The position numbers were made by a program, and so were the translations under genes. The notes beneath the pieces are model-generated. The model made no database searches. It had not been told where the DNA came from and worked only from the letters and a program-made list of their open reading frames with translations. DNA of 42,761 nucleotides, taken from the NCBI GenBank assembly GCA_027083035.1, contig JALWSY010000152.1:1-42761 (forward strand), in the 5' to 3' direction. How positions within the stretch are numbered: position 1 is the first letter of the stretch; every line of letters starts with the position of its first letter. Origin of the DNA: Sulfurimonas sp. Lineage in GTDB: Bacteria; Campylobacterota; Campylobacteria; Campylobacterales; Sulfurimonadaceae. Below, one piece after another: positions 16,349 through 32,216 of this stretch.

Positions 16349-19300
16349 TTAAATATATTTTGTTAATAATTCGCTAAGATCTGTTCTGTTAACAGTGCTT
16401 TCAATATCTTCACTTACAAACTTACTACTCTCTTGCCCTATGTTTTCCTTGTGAGTGTGCATTAGTATTATTTTACTCTCTTCATTAGTAGAGTGTAGCA
16501 AATCAGCTAACTCTTGCAGATTTAAATCTTTGAGTTCATTGTCAACTATAATAACTCTATAGTTGTTTCTTTGGATGCTTTTATTTAGCTCCTCGATATT
16601 ATTGCTAATATCACAAGTGTAACCTAAAGAGCTGAGTATTTTTACTAAAAACTTTGACTCAAAAGCACTCTTTTTAGCTACTAAAACATCTGCTCTGTAC
16701 TCTATAGGTGCTGGAGCTGTCATATCTTCTAAAGCCTCTTTTTGTTCAATTGTCTCTTGCTCTTCTACTTCTTCTTTTTCTGTATTTGTTTCTGCTTCTA
16801 GTGCTTCAGTAGGTGTGTCAAAAATCTCTTCTTTTGCAGGAGTAATTTCTTGCACAACTGTCTCTTCTTGAACCTCTGGAGCTACTTCAATAATAGATTC
16901 AGGTTCTGGTGTAGGGGTAGTAGGTTGAGGCTGAGGAGTTGCTTCTTTTTTGCTTTGTACTTCACTTGCTTCAACTATATGATCTGCTAAAAAGTGGTTG
17001 AGTAGTGAGATTATTTCTGAGCGAACAAGTGGTTTTGTTGTATATTCATCAAGTCCAGCTTCTAAGAACCTCTCTCTATCACCTTTGAGTGCATTTGCAG
17101 TAAGAGCAAGTATAGGAACATGGGGTTGATTATACTCCTCTTCATATTCTAAAATCTCCTTAGTGGCTTCCATACCATCTAAGAAAGGCATCTGAATATC
17201 CATAAAAATTAAATCAAAGTTTCCATCTTTACGTTTTTGAAAAGCTTCTAAACCATTTGAAGCGATGGAGATTGTTAATCCTAAATCTTCTAAAGTCCTT
17301 TTAATAAGCTTTTGGTTAATTATATTGTCTTCAGCAACTAAAACATTTGCATCAAATTTAGATGTATCTGCATTGAATTTTTTTCGATTTATCTGTTTTG
17401 CTTTTTTTGCACTAAAGTTTTCACTATGATAGTTCTCTAAAACTTGTTTGATTTTAGAGTTATTGAGTGGTTCATAGAGTGTTTTGAAGATATCTAAGTT
17501 CATTGACTCAATTTTCTTCATAAAGTATGATTTTGTTAGCATAATAAACTCTTGAGGCAGTACACTATATCTTCGCAGAGACTCCTCATCAGCATAATCA
17601 TAGTCAACGATAATCAGGTCATAGTTTACTTGGCGCTGGAGTGTCTCTAACTCATCAAAATCTTTAAATGTAGTAATGCTTACACCATAGAACTCTAAAT
17701 ATTCGCGAAGATAGATATCTTGGCGTTTTTGTTTATGAGCAGATTGTAGCACAAGTGCATTGATACTTGAGTATGTACCTCTGCTGCTCTCGTTAAGTGT
17801 TTCAATCTCTTCAAAGTCAAGTGTAAAGAAGAAAGTAGTCCCTTTACCCGGCTCACTTTCAAGATCGAGTTGTCCTCCCATAAGTTCAATAAAGCGTGAA
17901 GAGATGGTAAGACCAAGACCTGTACCACCGTACTTACGGGTAATTGAGGTGTCTGCTTGTGAGAAAGCTTCAAAAATTCTTGCTTTTTGCTCACTAGTAA
18001 CACCGATACCACTATCTTGTACTTCAAATCGGATACGGGTAATACCCTCTTTTTCAGAATCAAGTTTTCTGATATTGACATTTATCGCACCTGAACTGCT
18101 TGTAAACTTAACAGCATTTGAGAGAAGGTTAATAACAACCTCTTTAATCTTGGTAGGATCCCCTTTGATTGGGTTCTCTAGCTCTGGGTCAATAAAGAAT
18201 CCAAGGTCAATATGTTTCTCACTCGCACGAACAGCATAAACATCAACAGCTGATTCAAACTCTTCAATAGGATTAAAGGCAATATCTTCAATTTCTAGTT
18301 TGTTAGACTCAATTTTTGAGAGGTCAAGGATATTATTGATAATCTCAAGAAGATTCTCTGAAGATTTTTCGATAATCTCTACAAACTCTGTCTGCTCTTC
18401 AGCAAGACCTGTATCTTTTAGAAGTTCTGTAAATCCAACGATACCATTGAGCGGTGTACGAATCTCGTGAGACATATTTGCAAGGAACATCGATTTTGCT
18501 TCACTTGCCTCTTGAGCTGACTCTTTATCAAGGCGTGTTTGCTCAATAATCTTCTCTAGTAAATCATAAGCCTCTGCAGTACCTTTTGCAGTATGCAAGT
18601 TGATGTCAATAACCTCTTCACCTTCATTTGTATCTTCTGCAACGCGCTTAAGTACCTCTTCGAGTTTTTTGATATTTCTAGCAATCTCATTTGAGAGAAG
18701 ATAACCAAGAATAGCTAAGATGACAGATACGAGCCAAATAGTAAGAGTAATCGTGAGAAATTCTAGTGCGTCAGATTTTACTGTAACAGCACGCTTATCC
18801 ATTGCAGTTAAGATAATGTCTTCCGCTTTTGATATTAGATTTGTTTTCTCAGAAATCATGGTAAACCAGATACCAGAGGTGATATCATACTCACCACTCA
18901 TAGCAGCAGCCATAATACCTGTTCTTTCAGTATTTATATCATCAAAAAGTTCTTGGGCATCTTCTGTTTTGAAAATAGCATCGAGTTGTGAGACGATAAG
19001 TTTATCTTTAAGTGTAGCATAGTTGATAGCATCTGCTTTTGCAACAAGCGTAATCCAAGCATTTATCTCCTCTTCTTCAAACTCTGTAGCACGGGCAATA
19101 GCAAAAGAGATAAAGTCTCTTTCATCAGAGGTATATTCGTTTGCACGAACCAAAGAGATGTATTGTGTTGCAAGAGCATTTATCTTGGTGTCAAGTTGAT
19201 CATCGGTTATCTCTTCTAGTTGAGCAATTGCAACCTGCTGTGTCTTTCCATAAATCTCTTTATAGACCTCTTCAAAGTTTGTTTTATGCTCATCTACAGC

Positions 19301-19705
19301 TTTACGAATTTTTTTAATTTTTTCATACATTGCCTGAAGGGAAGCGATATTTCTACAAGTGTGACAATTCTCAACACCATGTGAATGGTCATGAAGTACA
19401 TCTTTTCGCTTAACGTGTTCTTCATATTCATGCATCTTCTCATCAACAACTTTACGTTGTTTCACAAGTGAACGAAGTGTATTTGGAGAGGAGTTTCCAA
19501 GATACATAACGGTCATACCGCGTTCACGCGAAATATTATTGATTAAGACATTAAGGTGTCTGTTTTGTGAGAGTTTATCTTGAAGAACTTGTGCAGCTCT
19601 GTAGTTTATAAACGAGTTATACACAAAGTAGCTTGTGATACCAAAGAGAATAATAATTGGTAAGAGACTGATAAGGCGAAGTCTATTTTTTAATCCTAAT
19701 TGCAT
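16349..19705 (-). CDS. NIT-domain hybrid sensor histidine kinase with three receiver-like domains
   Basis: A 1118-aa inner-membrane kinase. TM1 is about residues 10-30 and TM2 about 312-338. Between them lies a NIT (nitrate/nitrite-sensing) type helical domain, with the family-like [20 protein letters not shown] near its start. It contains an unusual His/Cys insertion, [13 protein letters not shown] (105-117). HisKA carries His413 in [12 protein letters not shown]. HATPase boxes are [22 protein letters not shown] and [10 protein letters not shown]. Then come a degenerate receiver (about 640-750, no acidic pair), a canonical receiver ([12 protein letters not shown], Asp836 in [15 protein letters not shown]), a Pro/Glu-rich linker (about 930-1000) and a second degenerate receiver. 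The ligand is inferred from the domain name only. It starts 4 nt after the Hpt gene. Confidence 0.93.
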
Positions 19706-19709
19706 CTAT

Positions 19710-21488
19710 TTATCCTTCTTTGTTAGATAACACTTCAAGTGTCTTCTTGATTGTATCAAGAGCATTTTGTAGCACTACCGTATCCTCAGAGGAGAGAAGT
19801 AGCTCCATCTCTTCTGAAAATGAAGTAACTCGCATATTTTCGCTCATGCCTTTAAGTTTGAGTGTCTCTTGTTGTAAAGTTTCGAAGTTTGCATCGTTGA
19901 GTGCTGTTGCGATTGTTTGAGTAATCATTTCTGCTTCTTCTATATAATCTTTGAAGAGTTCATTGAAACTCTCTATATCTAAACCTATCTCTTGTGCTAC
20001 ACTCTCTTTAGAGTAAGCTACATCTATACTTTGAGAAGACTCTTCACTTATAATGTCATTTTGTGTTTCTGTTTCAGGCTGCGTCTCTGTTTGAATATCT
20101 TCTGCAAAATCTATCTCTGGAGCTAAATCTAACTCCTCTTCACTCTTTTTCTCCTCTACAATATCATTCATAGTAACAGATTCTGTATCTTCTGCTAATT
20201 CAAGAGGCATATCATCGACTTCGTTAAAAGTGTCATCGGCAAGTTCTGGCATCTCTATCTTTTCAGGAACATCTGTATCATCAATTGACAAAGGATCAAT
20301 ATAAAGATCATCACTCTTCTGCGATACATCATTGAGTTCTTCGTGAGATGTAGTGTCTGTATTAGGAGTATCTGTAATCTCCTGTTCTACGACAACTTTT
20401 TCACCAGATAATTTAGCAATTATCTTGTAAAAGGTGTCTAAATTACGGTTGATAGTATCAATGTCTGAACTTGTATTTACAATGGTGATAGTTTCAAGGG
20501 CATCTTCAATTCTTAAGTTTGCTGCAACACCTTTAAGTTTGTGAGCAAGTATTTTTAGGCTATCTAAATCATTCTCTTGGAGGTGTTTATAGAGGTCATC
20601 TCTAAAATCATTAGCTTGTTCAATAAAGTCTTGAATAAACTCTTCTATTAAATCAAGTGGCAAACCAAGCTCCTCAGAAGCAACATGTGGGTCATACTCA
20701 TAGCCATTATCAAAGTTTTCTTCAACTTTTACTATAGGTGAACTAGGAGAGGCAGTATCTGTTTTTGGTGCCTCTTTGGTAAAGAGGTCATCTTCGAAAT
20801 TATCATCAATATCTATCTCTAATGGAATATCTAAGTTTTCTTCTTCTGTATCATCAAAGCTAATATCGAGTTTTTCTTCTTGATTAATTGGTTGGGAAGT
20901 AACTGTAGGCTCTTTGATAGGGATATCATCATCTAAGGAGATATCAAGAGGTGCTTCGTAAGGATCTGGTGTTACTGTTGGTTTTGGTGTTGCATCATAT
21001 GTATCTGTTATTGTTGCACTAGCAGGTGTAGTTGGCGTACTAAAGTTATCTATTGCTTTCTCATTTTTGCTTGTTGAGAAAATTTCTTGCGGCTCTTGTG
21101 CGTGCAGTGGCACTTCTCTTTGTCTAATATCTCCAGAAATTCTTTCACTTTCTGAAGCACTCAGTTCTCTAAGATTATGTAGCGTTACAAAGTATCCCTT
21201 AGATGAGGGGTTGTCAACTAAATAGGCAGTAGCAATTTGTACGATAGCCGTATAGTTTTTATTATTAACATTTATAATAACTTTTGATTCTTCGTTTGAT
21301 TCGGCACAGGCAATAAAGTCTATCCAGTGTACATGTTTAAAATTATGAACATATCCGGGAGTCTTTACAAACAAATCTGCAAAATCATGCACCTCCGCCC
21401 TAAGTCCACTTAAGTCTTGAAACCCCAAGGTTTTGAGATCTTTCTCATCTATTCCTATAAACTCTTTTTGAAAATTATAAATCAACAT
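19710..21488 (-). CDS. Hpt phosphotransfer protein with two Hpt domains (second lacks its histidine)
   Basis: A 592-aa soluble protein. Residues 1-110 form a PAS-like or unassigned input domain (FADLFVKTPGYVHNFKHVHW is a distinctive stretch). A long acidic, Pro/Thr-rich linker follows (about 120-270). Hpt1 (about 275-360) has the acceptor His316 in ILAHKLKGVAANLR. A second acidic linker (about 365-505) leads to Hpt2 (about 510-590), which reads TLKLKGMSENMR, with Leu543 where the histidine should be. Hpt1 can therefore relay phosphate; Hpt2 cannot. It lies between the Aer-type PAS gene and the NIT hybrid kinase (gaps of 13 and 4 nt), the obvious donor. The repeated acidic linkers suggest a flexible scaffold. 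Confidence 0.85.
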   Translation of the reverse strand: MLIYNFQKEFIGIDEKDLKTLGFQDLSGLRAEVHDFADLFVKTPGYVHNFKHVHWIDFIACAESNEESKVIINVNNKNYTAIVQIATAYLVDNPSSKGYFVTLHNLRELSASESERISGDIRQREVPLHAQEPQEIFSTSKNEKAIDNFSTPTTPASATITDTYDATPKPTVTPDPYEAPLDISLDDDIPIKEPTVTSQPINQEEKLDISFDDTEEENLDIPLEIDIDDNFEDDLFTKEAPKTDTASPSSPIVKVEENFDNGYEYDPHVASEELGLPLDLIEEFIQDFIEQANDFRDDLYKHLQENDLDSLKILAHKLKGVAANLRIEDALETITIVNTSSDIDTINRNLDTFYKIIAKLSGEKVVVEQEITDTPNTDTTSHEELNDVSQKSDDLYIDPLSIDDTDVPEKIEMPELADDTFNEVDDMPLELAEDTESVTMNDIVEEKKSEEELDLAPEIDFAEDIQTETQPETETQNDIISEESSQSIDVAYSKESVAQEIGLDIESFNELFKDYIEEAEMITQTIATALNDANFETLQQETLKLKGMSENMRVTSFSEEMELLLSSEDTVVLQNALDTIKKTLEVLSNKEG

Positions 21489-29576: not shown

Positions 29577-32216
29577 ATGAACACATTGAAGTTGCTGATA
29601 GTTTTATCTTTTTTAACGCTCAATACGCTTCATGCTGATTATATTAGAAGTATTCGTTTGGGTACCTACCCAAGTGAAGAGAGTGCAAAAAAAGCCCTAG
29701 AGAAAATTAATGAATTTGTAGAGACACACGATAATATTGTAGCGTTGATGCAAAAGAGAGATTTTATTTTTAAAGAGCGTAAATCTGGAAAGTATTATAT
29801 TACTTTAGTAGAACCCTTTACAGATAGAGCTATTTTACAAGAAGTACTCGATACATTACGTCTTGCATATCCTGATATTTATGTTACAAAACTAAAAAAG
29901 CTTCCTTTAGAAGAACCACGAACTATTCAAAAACAAGAAGAAGTTTTAGATGTAACTGATTTAGAAGAGGTAAACGAGCGAGAAGTTCCTCAAGTTACTC
30001 CAGAAACACTAAAAGTTACAGATGAAGCCTCTCTTAATGCTACTAAAGAGGAGGTTGTTGTTCAAGAAGATATACAGGCAGAAGAACCAACTGTGCTAGA
30101 GGCTGTAACCTTACCTACTCCAACACAGAGTAGCAGTAGTATGGAATGGAACTATTTTCAACTTCTCTCACTTATTCTTCTTTTCATTATTGGTATCCTA
30201 GTGAAATATCTTATTAAATACAAAAAAGAGAATGAACTTTATCTTAACAAAGAGATGATTTATCATGAAAAGATGGAGAAAATACACTCAGAATTAGTAA
30301 GCAAAGACAAACTACTCTCTCATGTAAGTCATGAACTTAGGACGCCAATGACTGCTATAATGGGTTTAACTCATTTGGTTTTAGAGAGTGATTTAACGAA
30401 ACTTCAAAAAGATTATATATTAAAAATAGAGAGTTCATCAGAACATCTTCTAAGTCTTATTAATGATATCTTGGATGTTTCAAAGATTCAGGCAGGTGAG
30501 TTGAAGCTTGAGCAGAGTGAGTTTAATATAAATGATATTTTAGAGTATGTCTTTAGCGTAAATGCAGTAAATGCGAAGCGTAATGAGAATACTTTTTTTA
30601 TGGATGTGGATTTAGATGTTCCATCTAAAGTTATTGGGGACTCACTACGCTTAGGGCAGGTACTGATTAATCTTATTGGAAATGCCGTAAAGTTTACACA
30701 TAAAGGAGAGGTCTCTTTACATATAAAAAAGATTGATTCTTTTGGAGATAATGTAAAGTTGGAATTTAGTGTTGCTGATACCGGTATAGGAATGACAACA
30801 GAACAGGTGAATAATATTTTTCACTCTTTTTATCAGGCAGATGAATCTATAAGTCGTGAATTTGGTGGCACAGGACTAGGTCTCTCTATCTCAAAAGAGT
30901 TAGTAGAGATGATGGGTGGTGAGATTAGGGTAGAGAGCCAAAAGGATATAGGTACAACTTTTATTTTTACAGTAGTCCTAAAACTAAAAGATCCTGAAAA
31001 TAAAAGATACTATCGTCTTCCATCCTCCTCTATGCTTCATAAAAAGATACTTATTGTAGAGTCGTCCAATAAAAATGTTATCTCTTTAATTAAATCATTA
31101 GGTTATTTTAACTACAAAACGAATACTATCCCTTCTTTTGAGGAAGCAGTTCTTGAAGAGGATACAAAATTTGACATTGTCATTATTAATCAATACAATT
31201 TAACAAAAATAGCAAAGGAAAAGATTGCTCTAATGCAAAGAGAGTATGATACAAAGCTAGTAGTGCTTAATGAAATCTATGCAGGGGTACATAGTGATTT
31301 GTTAGGTGATTTTAAAATTGATGCATTTTTACAAGTTCCTGCAACACAACAGAGTGTATTGAATATGATAGTTGATTTATATGTAGCAAAAAATCTTGAT
31401 AAACGTTCTCGAAAAACAACCCTCAAAGATAAACTCAAAGAGTTTGCAGGAAAGAAGATTTTAGTTGCCGAAGATAATGATGTCAATCAAAAAGTAATAT
31501 CAGGCCTTTTGGCAAAAACAGGTATTGAGATGACCTATGTGGATGATGGGCAAGAGGCGATTGATTTGATACGCAAGGATATCCCTTTTGATTTAGTGCT
31601 GATGGATATTAATATGCCAAACATGAATGGGTATGAAGCAGCGCGTGAGATACGTAAAAGTAATAAATACAAGACATTGCCGATTTTAGCACTTACAGGG
31701 GATGTTACGGACGCAGCAATTTCAAAGGCGATAGAGTCCGGAATGCAAGGGCATATCTCTAAACCGATTATTATTGATATTTTTTATAAAAAAATTTATA
31801 ATATGCTCTCAATGGAGGAGATGGACTTTGCAAAAGATACGCAAGCGTGTGCTTTAAGTAGTGCGATAGAAGATGGTTATGAAGAACTCTCTGTTTCGGT
31901 TGGTTTAGCTCGTTGTAACGGGGATAAGGAGTTTTATAAAACTATTTTACTTGATTTTAAAAGTATGTATGCAAACTCTGCACAATCATTGAAAGATTTT
32001 TGTGAAGCTCAAAAGTTTAAAGAGGCAAGACGAATGGCTATGGACATTAAAGATATAGCACTTAATATCGGGGCTTATAATCTTTGTGAAAGTGCTGCTA
32101 GTATGGAGTACGAGTTTGAGAAGGGAAGTCGCAGCAAGTGGAGAGAGCTAATTGCGTATTATGATAGTGTACTTGCAACTCTTTTTAAGGATATTGAAAA
32201 GTATTTGAGCAAGTAG
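29577..32216 (+). CDS. hybrid histidine kinase with periplasmic SPOR domain
   Basis: An 879-aa sensor kinase with an uncommon input. A signal peptide (MNTLKLLIVLSFLTLNTLHA) is followed by a SPOR-like domain (about 22-105): SIRLGTYPSEESAKKALEKI, then YITLVEPFTDRAILQEVLDT. SPOR domains bind glycan strands lacking stem peptides. An acidic linker leads to one TM (about 192-212). HisKA has His252 in HVSHELRTPM. HATPase shows LINLIGNAVKFT, ADTGIGMT and GGTGLGLSIS. A degenerate receiver without an acidic pair precedes a canonical one (LVAEDNDVNQKV, Asp677 in LMDINMPNMNG, SKPI). The C-terminus is Hpt-like (MAMDIKDIALNIGA) but has Met822 in place of the histidine. RBS AAAGGG precedes the ATG. The signal and output are unknown. 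Confidence 0.88.
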   Translation: MNTLKLLIVLSFLTLNTLHADYIRSIRLGTYPSEESAKKALEKINEFVETHDNIVALMQKRDFIFKERKSGKYYITLVEPFTDRAILQEVLDTLRLAYPDIYVTKLKKLPLEEPRTIQKQEEVLDVTDLEEVNEREVPQVTPETLKVTDEASLNATKEEVVVQEDIQAEEPTVLEAVTLPTPTQSSSSMEWNYFQLLSLILLFIIGILVKYLIKYKKENELYLNKEMIYHEKMEKIHSELVSKDKLLSHVSHELRTPMTAIMGLTHLVLESDLTKLQKDYILKIESSSEHLLSLINDILDVSKIQAGELKLEQSEFNINDILEYVFSVNAVNAKRNENTFFMDVDLDVPSKVIGDSLRLGQVLINLIGNAVKFTHKGEVSLHIKKIDSFGDNVKLEFSVADTGIGMTTEQVNNIFHSFYQADESISREFGGTGLGLSISKELVEMMGGEIRVESQKDIGTTFIFTVVLKLKDPENKRYYRLPSSSMLHKKILIVESSNKNVISLIKSLGYFNYKTNTIPSFEEAVLEEDTKFDIVIINQYNLTKIAKEKIALMQREYDTKLVVLNEIYAGVHSDLLGDFKIDAFLQVPATQQSVLNMIVDLYVAKNLDKRSRKTTLKDKLKEFAGKKILVAEDNDVNQKVISGLLAKTGIEMTYVDDGQEAIDLIRKDIPFDLVLMDINMPNMNGYEAAREIRKSNKYKTLPILALTGDVTDAAISKAIESGMQGHISKPIIIDIFYKKIYNMLSMEEMDFAKDTQACALSSAIEDGYEELSVSVGLARCNGDKEFYKTILLDFKSMYANSAQSLKDFCEAQKFKEARRMAMDIKDIALNIGAYNLCESAASMEYEFEKGSRSKWRELIAYYDSVLATLFKDIEKYLSK

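Follow-up and report, generated by a model that had tools for sequence, protein, structure and literature searches.

The open reading frame located at positions 29577-32216 of the forward strand of the window, i.e., the whole stretch of 42,761 nucleotides that was analysed, belongs to a Sulfurimonas-like bacterium and, from an ATG start codon, encodes a membrane signalling kinase of 879 amino acids, whose features are all given here on the + strand. The N-terminus of the protein (MNTLKLLIVLSFLTLNTLHA|DYIRS) exhibits a short hydrophobic core and fits a putative cleaved signal peptide (residues 1-20, 29577-29636), the predicted LHA/DY cleavage placing at position -1 the residue Ala20, whose conservation reaches 90% or more among 19 relatives of the locus. 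It is followed by a SPOR-related periplasmic domain (residues 24-103, 29646-29885), a variable periplasmic linker (residues 104-193, 29886-30155) and a single transmembrane helix (residues 195-213, 30159-30215; hydropathy 2.43). The kinase core consists of a HisKA domain (residues 243-307, 30303-30497; Pfam 2e-19) and a HATPase_c domain (residues 354-467, 30636-30977; Pfam 5e-29), and is prolonged by a degenerate receiver 1 (residues ~490-612, 31044-31412), which is unrecognised by Pfam and was delineated by orthologue alignment and motif position, a receiver 2 (residues 628-734, 31458-31778; Pfam 3e-24), and a C-terminal HPt-fold domain (residues 770-879, 31884-32213). The transmembrane helix, the kinase core and the receivers announced by the sequence-only reading are recognized in this product, by hydropathy, by Pfam and, for receiver 1, by alignment, together with the predicted signal peptide, and its central observation, namely that a hybrid kinase carries a SPOR-related domain in the periplasm, is confirmed. 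The linker, described as acidic, indeed looks so by eye in the window, but averages only 20% acidic versus 17% basic residues over the orthologues. The immediate neighbours of the gene in the window encode, according to Pfam, a uroporphyrinogen-III synthase and a HDOD protein and, further out, GMP synthase and PurD-like genes were identified by sequence. None of these neighbours is a response regulator or a wall gene, and no partner was found among the neighbouring genes, those identified being housekeeping genes; other members of the family adjoin different housekeeping genes.

The residues expected of a working kinase are intact in the window protein, namely H252 within the SHELRTP motif of HisKA, the DTGIGM (401) and GGTGLGLS (430) boxes of the ATPase domain, and the acceptor D677 of receiver 2. 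Two features come in addition to what had first been read from the gene. In receiver 1, the alignment of orthologues and the motif position show N538 where receiver 2 has D677. The C-terminal domain, which gives a weak Pfam Hpt match, is predicted to adopt a four-helix HPt fold (AF2 pLDDT 87.7; Foldseek match to 3myf with a TM of 0.85), and its phospho-His is replaced by M822. This His is absent from all 13 aligned proteins of the same locus type, its position being occupied by Met, Leu, Arg or Val in the relatives of the window's clade, and the more distant L054, L072 and L090 keep it (AHDIKG/SHDIKG). Both the Asp of receiver 1 and the His of the HPt domain having been lost, phosphotransfer within the molecule appears to go no further than receiver 2. 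The HisKA-HATPase-REC-HPt order is that of the BarA/ArcB/TorS-type hybrid kinases, and BarA is the best NCBIfam match of the protein (E 5.5e-113, 378.8 bits versus a cut-off of 890); the 25 best NCBIfam matches are all kinase models, those listed lying below cut-off, and the PHROGs matches fall on the kinase and receiver part. The present kinase differs from the BarA/ArcB/TorS type by its SPOR-derived input, its receiver 1 devoid of acceptor Asp and its HPt domain devoid of His. Among 13 orthologues, the linker varies from 64 to 101 residues with a mean pairwise identity of 0.21, as compared to 0.53 for the SPOR-related domain and 0.59-0.63 for the HisKA, ATPase and receiver 2 domains.

SPOR domains are cell-wall-binding domains, best known from cell-division proteins and regarded as markers of division sites. 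In FtsN, DamX and DedD the SPOR domain is located at the C-terminus, whereas the domain described here forms the mature N-terminus, ahead of the transmembrane helix. Taken alone, the window protein misses the Pfam SPOR (PF05036) cut-off of 21 bits both at full length (15.7 bits) and over residues 1-191 (20.8 bits, E 5e-4), and a family of the domain was therefore built. PF05036 matches occur in 16 of the 69 family members scanned, the best one reaching 31.4 bits and 2.5e-7 in L066. Aligned with 32 ordinary SPOR domains from the same and related genomes, the family gave a collinear hhalign match with a probability of 97.1 and an E-value of 5.7e-11. A search of 298 genomes of the phylum with the family profile recovered ordinary SPOR proteins, some of the matches being places already found with PF05036, e.g., G217:C56 and G031:C91 (locus L122). 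The AlphaFold2 model of the domain (pLDDT 91.7) displays the order of elements E-H-H-E-E-H-E, in which the RNP-like βαββαβ fold of SPOR is predicted together with an extra helix, corresponding to an insertion of about 14 residues after helix 1 that is also seen with hhalign. The two SPOR-like halves first distinguished in this segment are indeed SPOR-like, but they are the halves of a single SPOR fold, itself a pseudo-repeat. Foldseek matched the model to the SPOR domains of RlpA (6i09, bound to denuded glycan; TM 0.68) and CwlC (TM 0.63), both with a probability of 1.00; however, all of the E-values are weak and designed ferredoxin folds and other ferredoxin-like folds rank alongside SPOR, so that Foldseek alone is not decisive. 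A sequence search of solved structures gave nothing useful with the N-terminus alone and, with the family profile, retrieved the FtsN and CwlC SPOR domains at no better than E 0.48 and 1.3, with Tic22 and others listed next to them. A chance resemblance between SPOR and an unrelated ferredoxin-like sensor domain would agree with the sub-threshold score of the single protein and with these weak structural matches, but is very improbable in view of the Pfam match of L066 and the recovery of ordinary SPOR proteins by the reverse search, and was rejected on the collinear profile-profile result. On profile and model evidence, residues 24-103 are concluded to form one divergent SPOR domain, of a family that is clearly SPOR-related.

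The surface of the domain is another matter. RlpA holds denuded glycan through a conserved Q270, a patch made of R302, R309 and R311, and main-chain contacts, which account for much of the interaction (PMC6895207). The Gln of strand β1, in the column of RlpA Q270, is found in none of the 72 family domains versus 31 of 32 ordinary SPOR domains of these bacteria; the column contains 20 Arg, in the window's clade, and 47 Val/Ile, predominant elsewhere, and is occupied by R27 in the window protein. The Lys/Arg of strand β3, present in 31/32 ordinary domains, occurs in 6/72 family domains, most of the others showing Ile, Val or Leu (I75 in the window), and the Gly of the GPF motif is a Glu in 61/72, giving EPF. 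Conversely, the β1 aromatic residue (F274 in RlpA) is a Phe or Tyr in 64/72 domains, and 58/72 have Arg or Lys at the position of R68. By hairpin spacing, R68 may stand for R302, the mapping of R302/R309/R311 onto the domain being putative. Eleven residues, M1, Y22, R24, I26, R27, E79, P80, Q88, D92, Y98 and Y102, are invariant in 19 proteins (the window locus and close homologues), a list biased to N-terminal columns by short members that leave gaps elsewhere; all except M1 and Y22 fall within the SPOR-related domain. As compared with PF05036 domains such as those of RlpA, FtsN and CwlC, the family thus shares profile-profile homology, the predicted strand/helix order and the aromatic residue, and differs by the extra helix, the EPF motif, the absence of the β1 Gln and the apparent absence of most of the basic patch. 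To judge from these alignments, the domain surface is conserved but not canonical, and the side chains that normally grip the bare wall sugar appear to be missing.

These residues weigh directly on the ligand. In an explanation that develops the first reading, the domain would attach to denuded septal glycan in the manner of FtsN, DamX or RlpA, and the kinase, brought to the division site, would report septation or amidase activity. The SPOR homology and fold, the match to glycan-bound RlpA, the retained aromatic and basic (R68) positions, the presence of R27 at the Gln position and the largely main-chain character of the RlpA contact (PMC6895207) all go in this direction; set against the β1 Gln lost throughout, the β3 base nearly so and the Gly-to-Glu replacement, they leave this explanation improbable, and neither a reading of denuded glycan nor one of septation by the kinase is supported as stated. 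Binding of peptidoglycan by another mode, or of another envelope ligand, is possible.

Among 200 genomes from the taxonomic family of the window, 87 gave matches to the N-terminal domain. The sample that was studied, made of 60 stretches, two named Sulfurimonas loci and the window, yielded 73 domains in 70 proteins, one protein being present twice (L034 and L036); the sample was picked by domain similarity and does not tell how often these forms occur in nature. The tree comprises 72 domains, of which 33 belong to proteins matching a kinase, 10 to receiver proteins devoid of kinase and 29 to other architectures, some of the latter being truncated by contig ends. The kinases bearing these 33 domains share the same signal peptide-SPOR-linker-TM-kinase order. 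Depending on the protein, the domain is carried by hybrid kinases, membrane-anchored receivers, small SPOR-TM proteins, tandem SPOR-TM proteins, a type II-like secretin, or ankyrin and TPR proteins. Other families of the order likewise possess hybrid kinases bearing the domain, namely L135 and L136-L138, of which L136-L138 score less well for the domain family. The SPOR tree, built on no more than 80 columns and with numerous unresolved forks, gives no firm count of gains and losses but supports a clustering of the output types (15 changes versus 30 when shuffled). The secretin, encoded at L066:3325-5502 (-), combines an N-terminal SPOR-related domain (Pfam SPOR 2.5e-7) with GspD N0 and Secretin domains and adjoins a T2SSE ATPase gene. 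Arrays of three SPOR-family genes beside a long gene occur at L060:1-2486 and L062:1822-5341; the long neighbour of the L060 array is a radical SAM protein (Pfam), and one of the three genes of the L062 array encodes a SPOR-TM-receiver.

The gene order guaA, hemD, X, (HDOD), purD, RDD-type protein, lptD-like is common to many relatives, guaA, purD, RDD and lptD being named from sequence, and hemD and HDOD from Pfam. In most of the relatives fetched at the guaA-hemD-X-purD locus, X is a full hybrid kinase. In several of them, it has another form with the reading frames still open: the ATPase boxes are decayed in L044, both the H-box and the receiver are absent from L047, two genes encoding SPOR-TM and SPOR-TM-HPt proteins occupy the place of X in L050, and in L053 and L056 X is a 329-residue SPOR-TM protein devoid of kinase. 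As far as the reading frames indicate, the SPOR-TM part persists at this locus without a working kinase. Since it outlives the kinase in close relatives, its role is probably not confined to that of a kinase input.

Such a distribution also suits a domain that is mainly a protein-protein module, clustering SPOR-TM proteins, kinases and receivers in an envelope complex and devoid of any saccharide ligand of its own. SPOR-TM-REC proteins adjoin a SPOR hybrid kinase in L064 and L072, SPOR proteins are arrayed by three in L060 and L062, a SPOR-TM protein lies beside a SPOR-TM-HPt protein in L050, kinase-free forms are kept and the glycan contacts are lost. However, a single member of the family was found in the window genome, where no in-family partner was seen, although a further member could be missed because the assembly consists of 192 contigs with 94.6% completeness. 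Such a clustering role is rather unlikely, if less so than septal glycan binding.

The favoured reading, to which we attribute a probability of about 0.45, ahead of each of these three alternatives, is that of an envelope-tethering input module with an altered ligand mode. The cleaved signal peptide would export the SPOR-derived module, which the flexible linker would hang from the single transmembrane helix. The altered SPOR surface would then bind a target in the envelope, probably the peptidoglycan or a protein associated with the wall, thereby tethering or positioning the kinase dimer, and occupancy or the state of the tether would set the kinase/phosphatase balance. The phosphoryl group would pass from H252 to D677 of the second receiver and, owing to the loss of the phospho-sites of receiver 1 and HPt, the output would come either from contacts made by phospho-D677 or by way of an HPt domain in another protein; the window genome contains 11 Hpt matches, the present one included. 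In favour of this reading are the SPOR homology and fold, the same order of parts on the kinases of the tree, the existence of kinases with the domain in other families of the order, and the intact HisKA, ATPase and receiver 2 motifs. A hypervariable linker between conserved SPOR and kinase parts is more readily understood as a tether than as a rigid signalling helix, and a general anchoring part would be expected, like this module, on proteins as varied as receivers, small TM proteins, a secretin and proteins with TPR or ankyrin repeats. The retention of the SPOR-TM part at the syntenic locus where the kinase is decayed or gone also counts for tethering. Counted against it are the loss of the Gln and, apparently, of most of the basic-patch residues binding denuded glycan, which leaves the wall target putative, and neighbours devoid of any response regulator or wall gene. 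A wider proposal, according to which the bacteria of this order have made SPOR a general periplasmic input/anchoring module for membrane phosphorelay proteins, which reads an envelope feature other than denuded glycan and whose function outlasts the kinase, is tentative, the odds leaning somewhat against it.

With WalK, and with PleC and its scaffold PodJ, the protein shares the general notion of a kinase tied to the cell wall or to division (PMC10746227, PMC8980812). The abstracts of these papers report no SPOR domain on the kinase; PodJ is a separate protein. A literature search on SPOR with kinases, two-component systems and Sulfurimonas, in which the coverage of subscription journals is thin, revealed no SPOR kinase described in titles or abstract openings, in agreement with the initial remark that such an architecture is not known as a described system. 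The recurrence of a divergent SPOR domain at the outer side of hybrid kinases and receivers suggests that two-component systems sense the state of the wall or envelope directly, and the natural variants with a kinase, a decayed kinase or no kinase represent a ready set to test the SPOR part by itself.

Several other proteins were encountered. An outer membrane efflux (TolC-like) protein encoded at L143:3189-5576 (-) (Pfam OEP 2e-42) has a sub-threshold SPOR-like C-terminus, and a TolC-like protein at L091:2504-4924 (+), the OEP reading of which comes from the single OEP count of the Pfam tally and the sequence, has a SPOR-like C-terminus with a family match at 715-793. The gene at L140:1478-3106 (+) encodes a D,D-carboxypeptidase of the S13 type that carries a SPOR domain at its C-terminus (5.7e-11). 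Adjacent ATPase-bearing genes at L139:1-4538 (-), a 476-aa frame and one of 860 aa, show weak family matches near both N-termini. Finally, a second phosphorelay occurs in the window at 16349-21488 (-), where a NIT-domain hybrid kinase (1118 aa) adjoins a 592-aa protein with Hpt matches.
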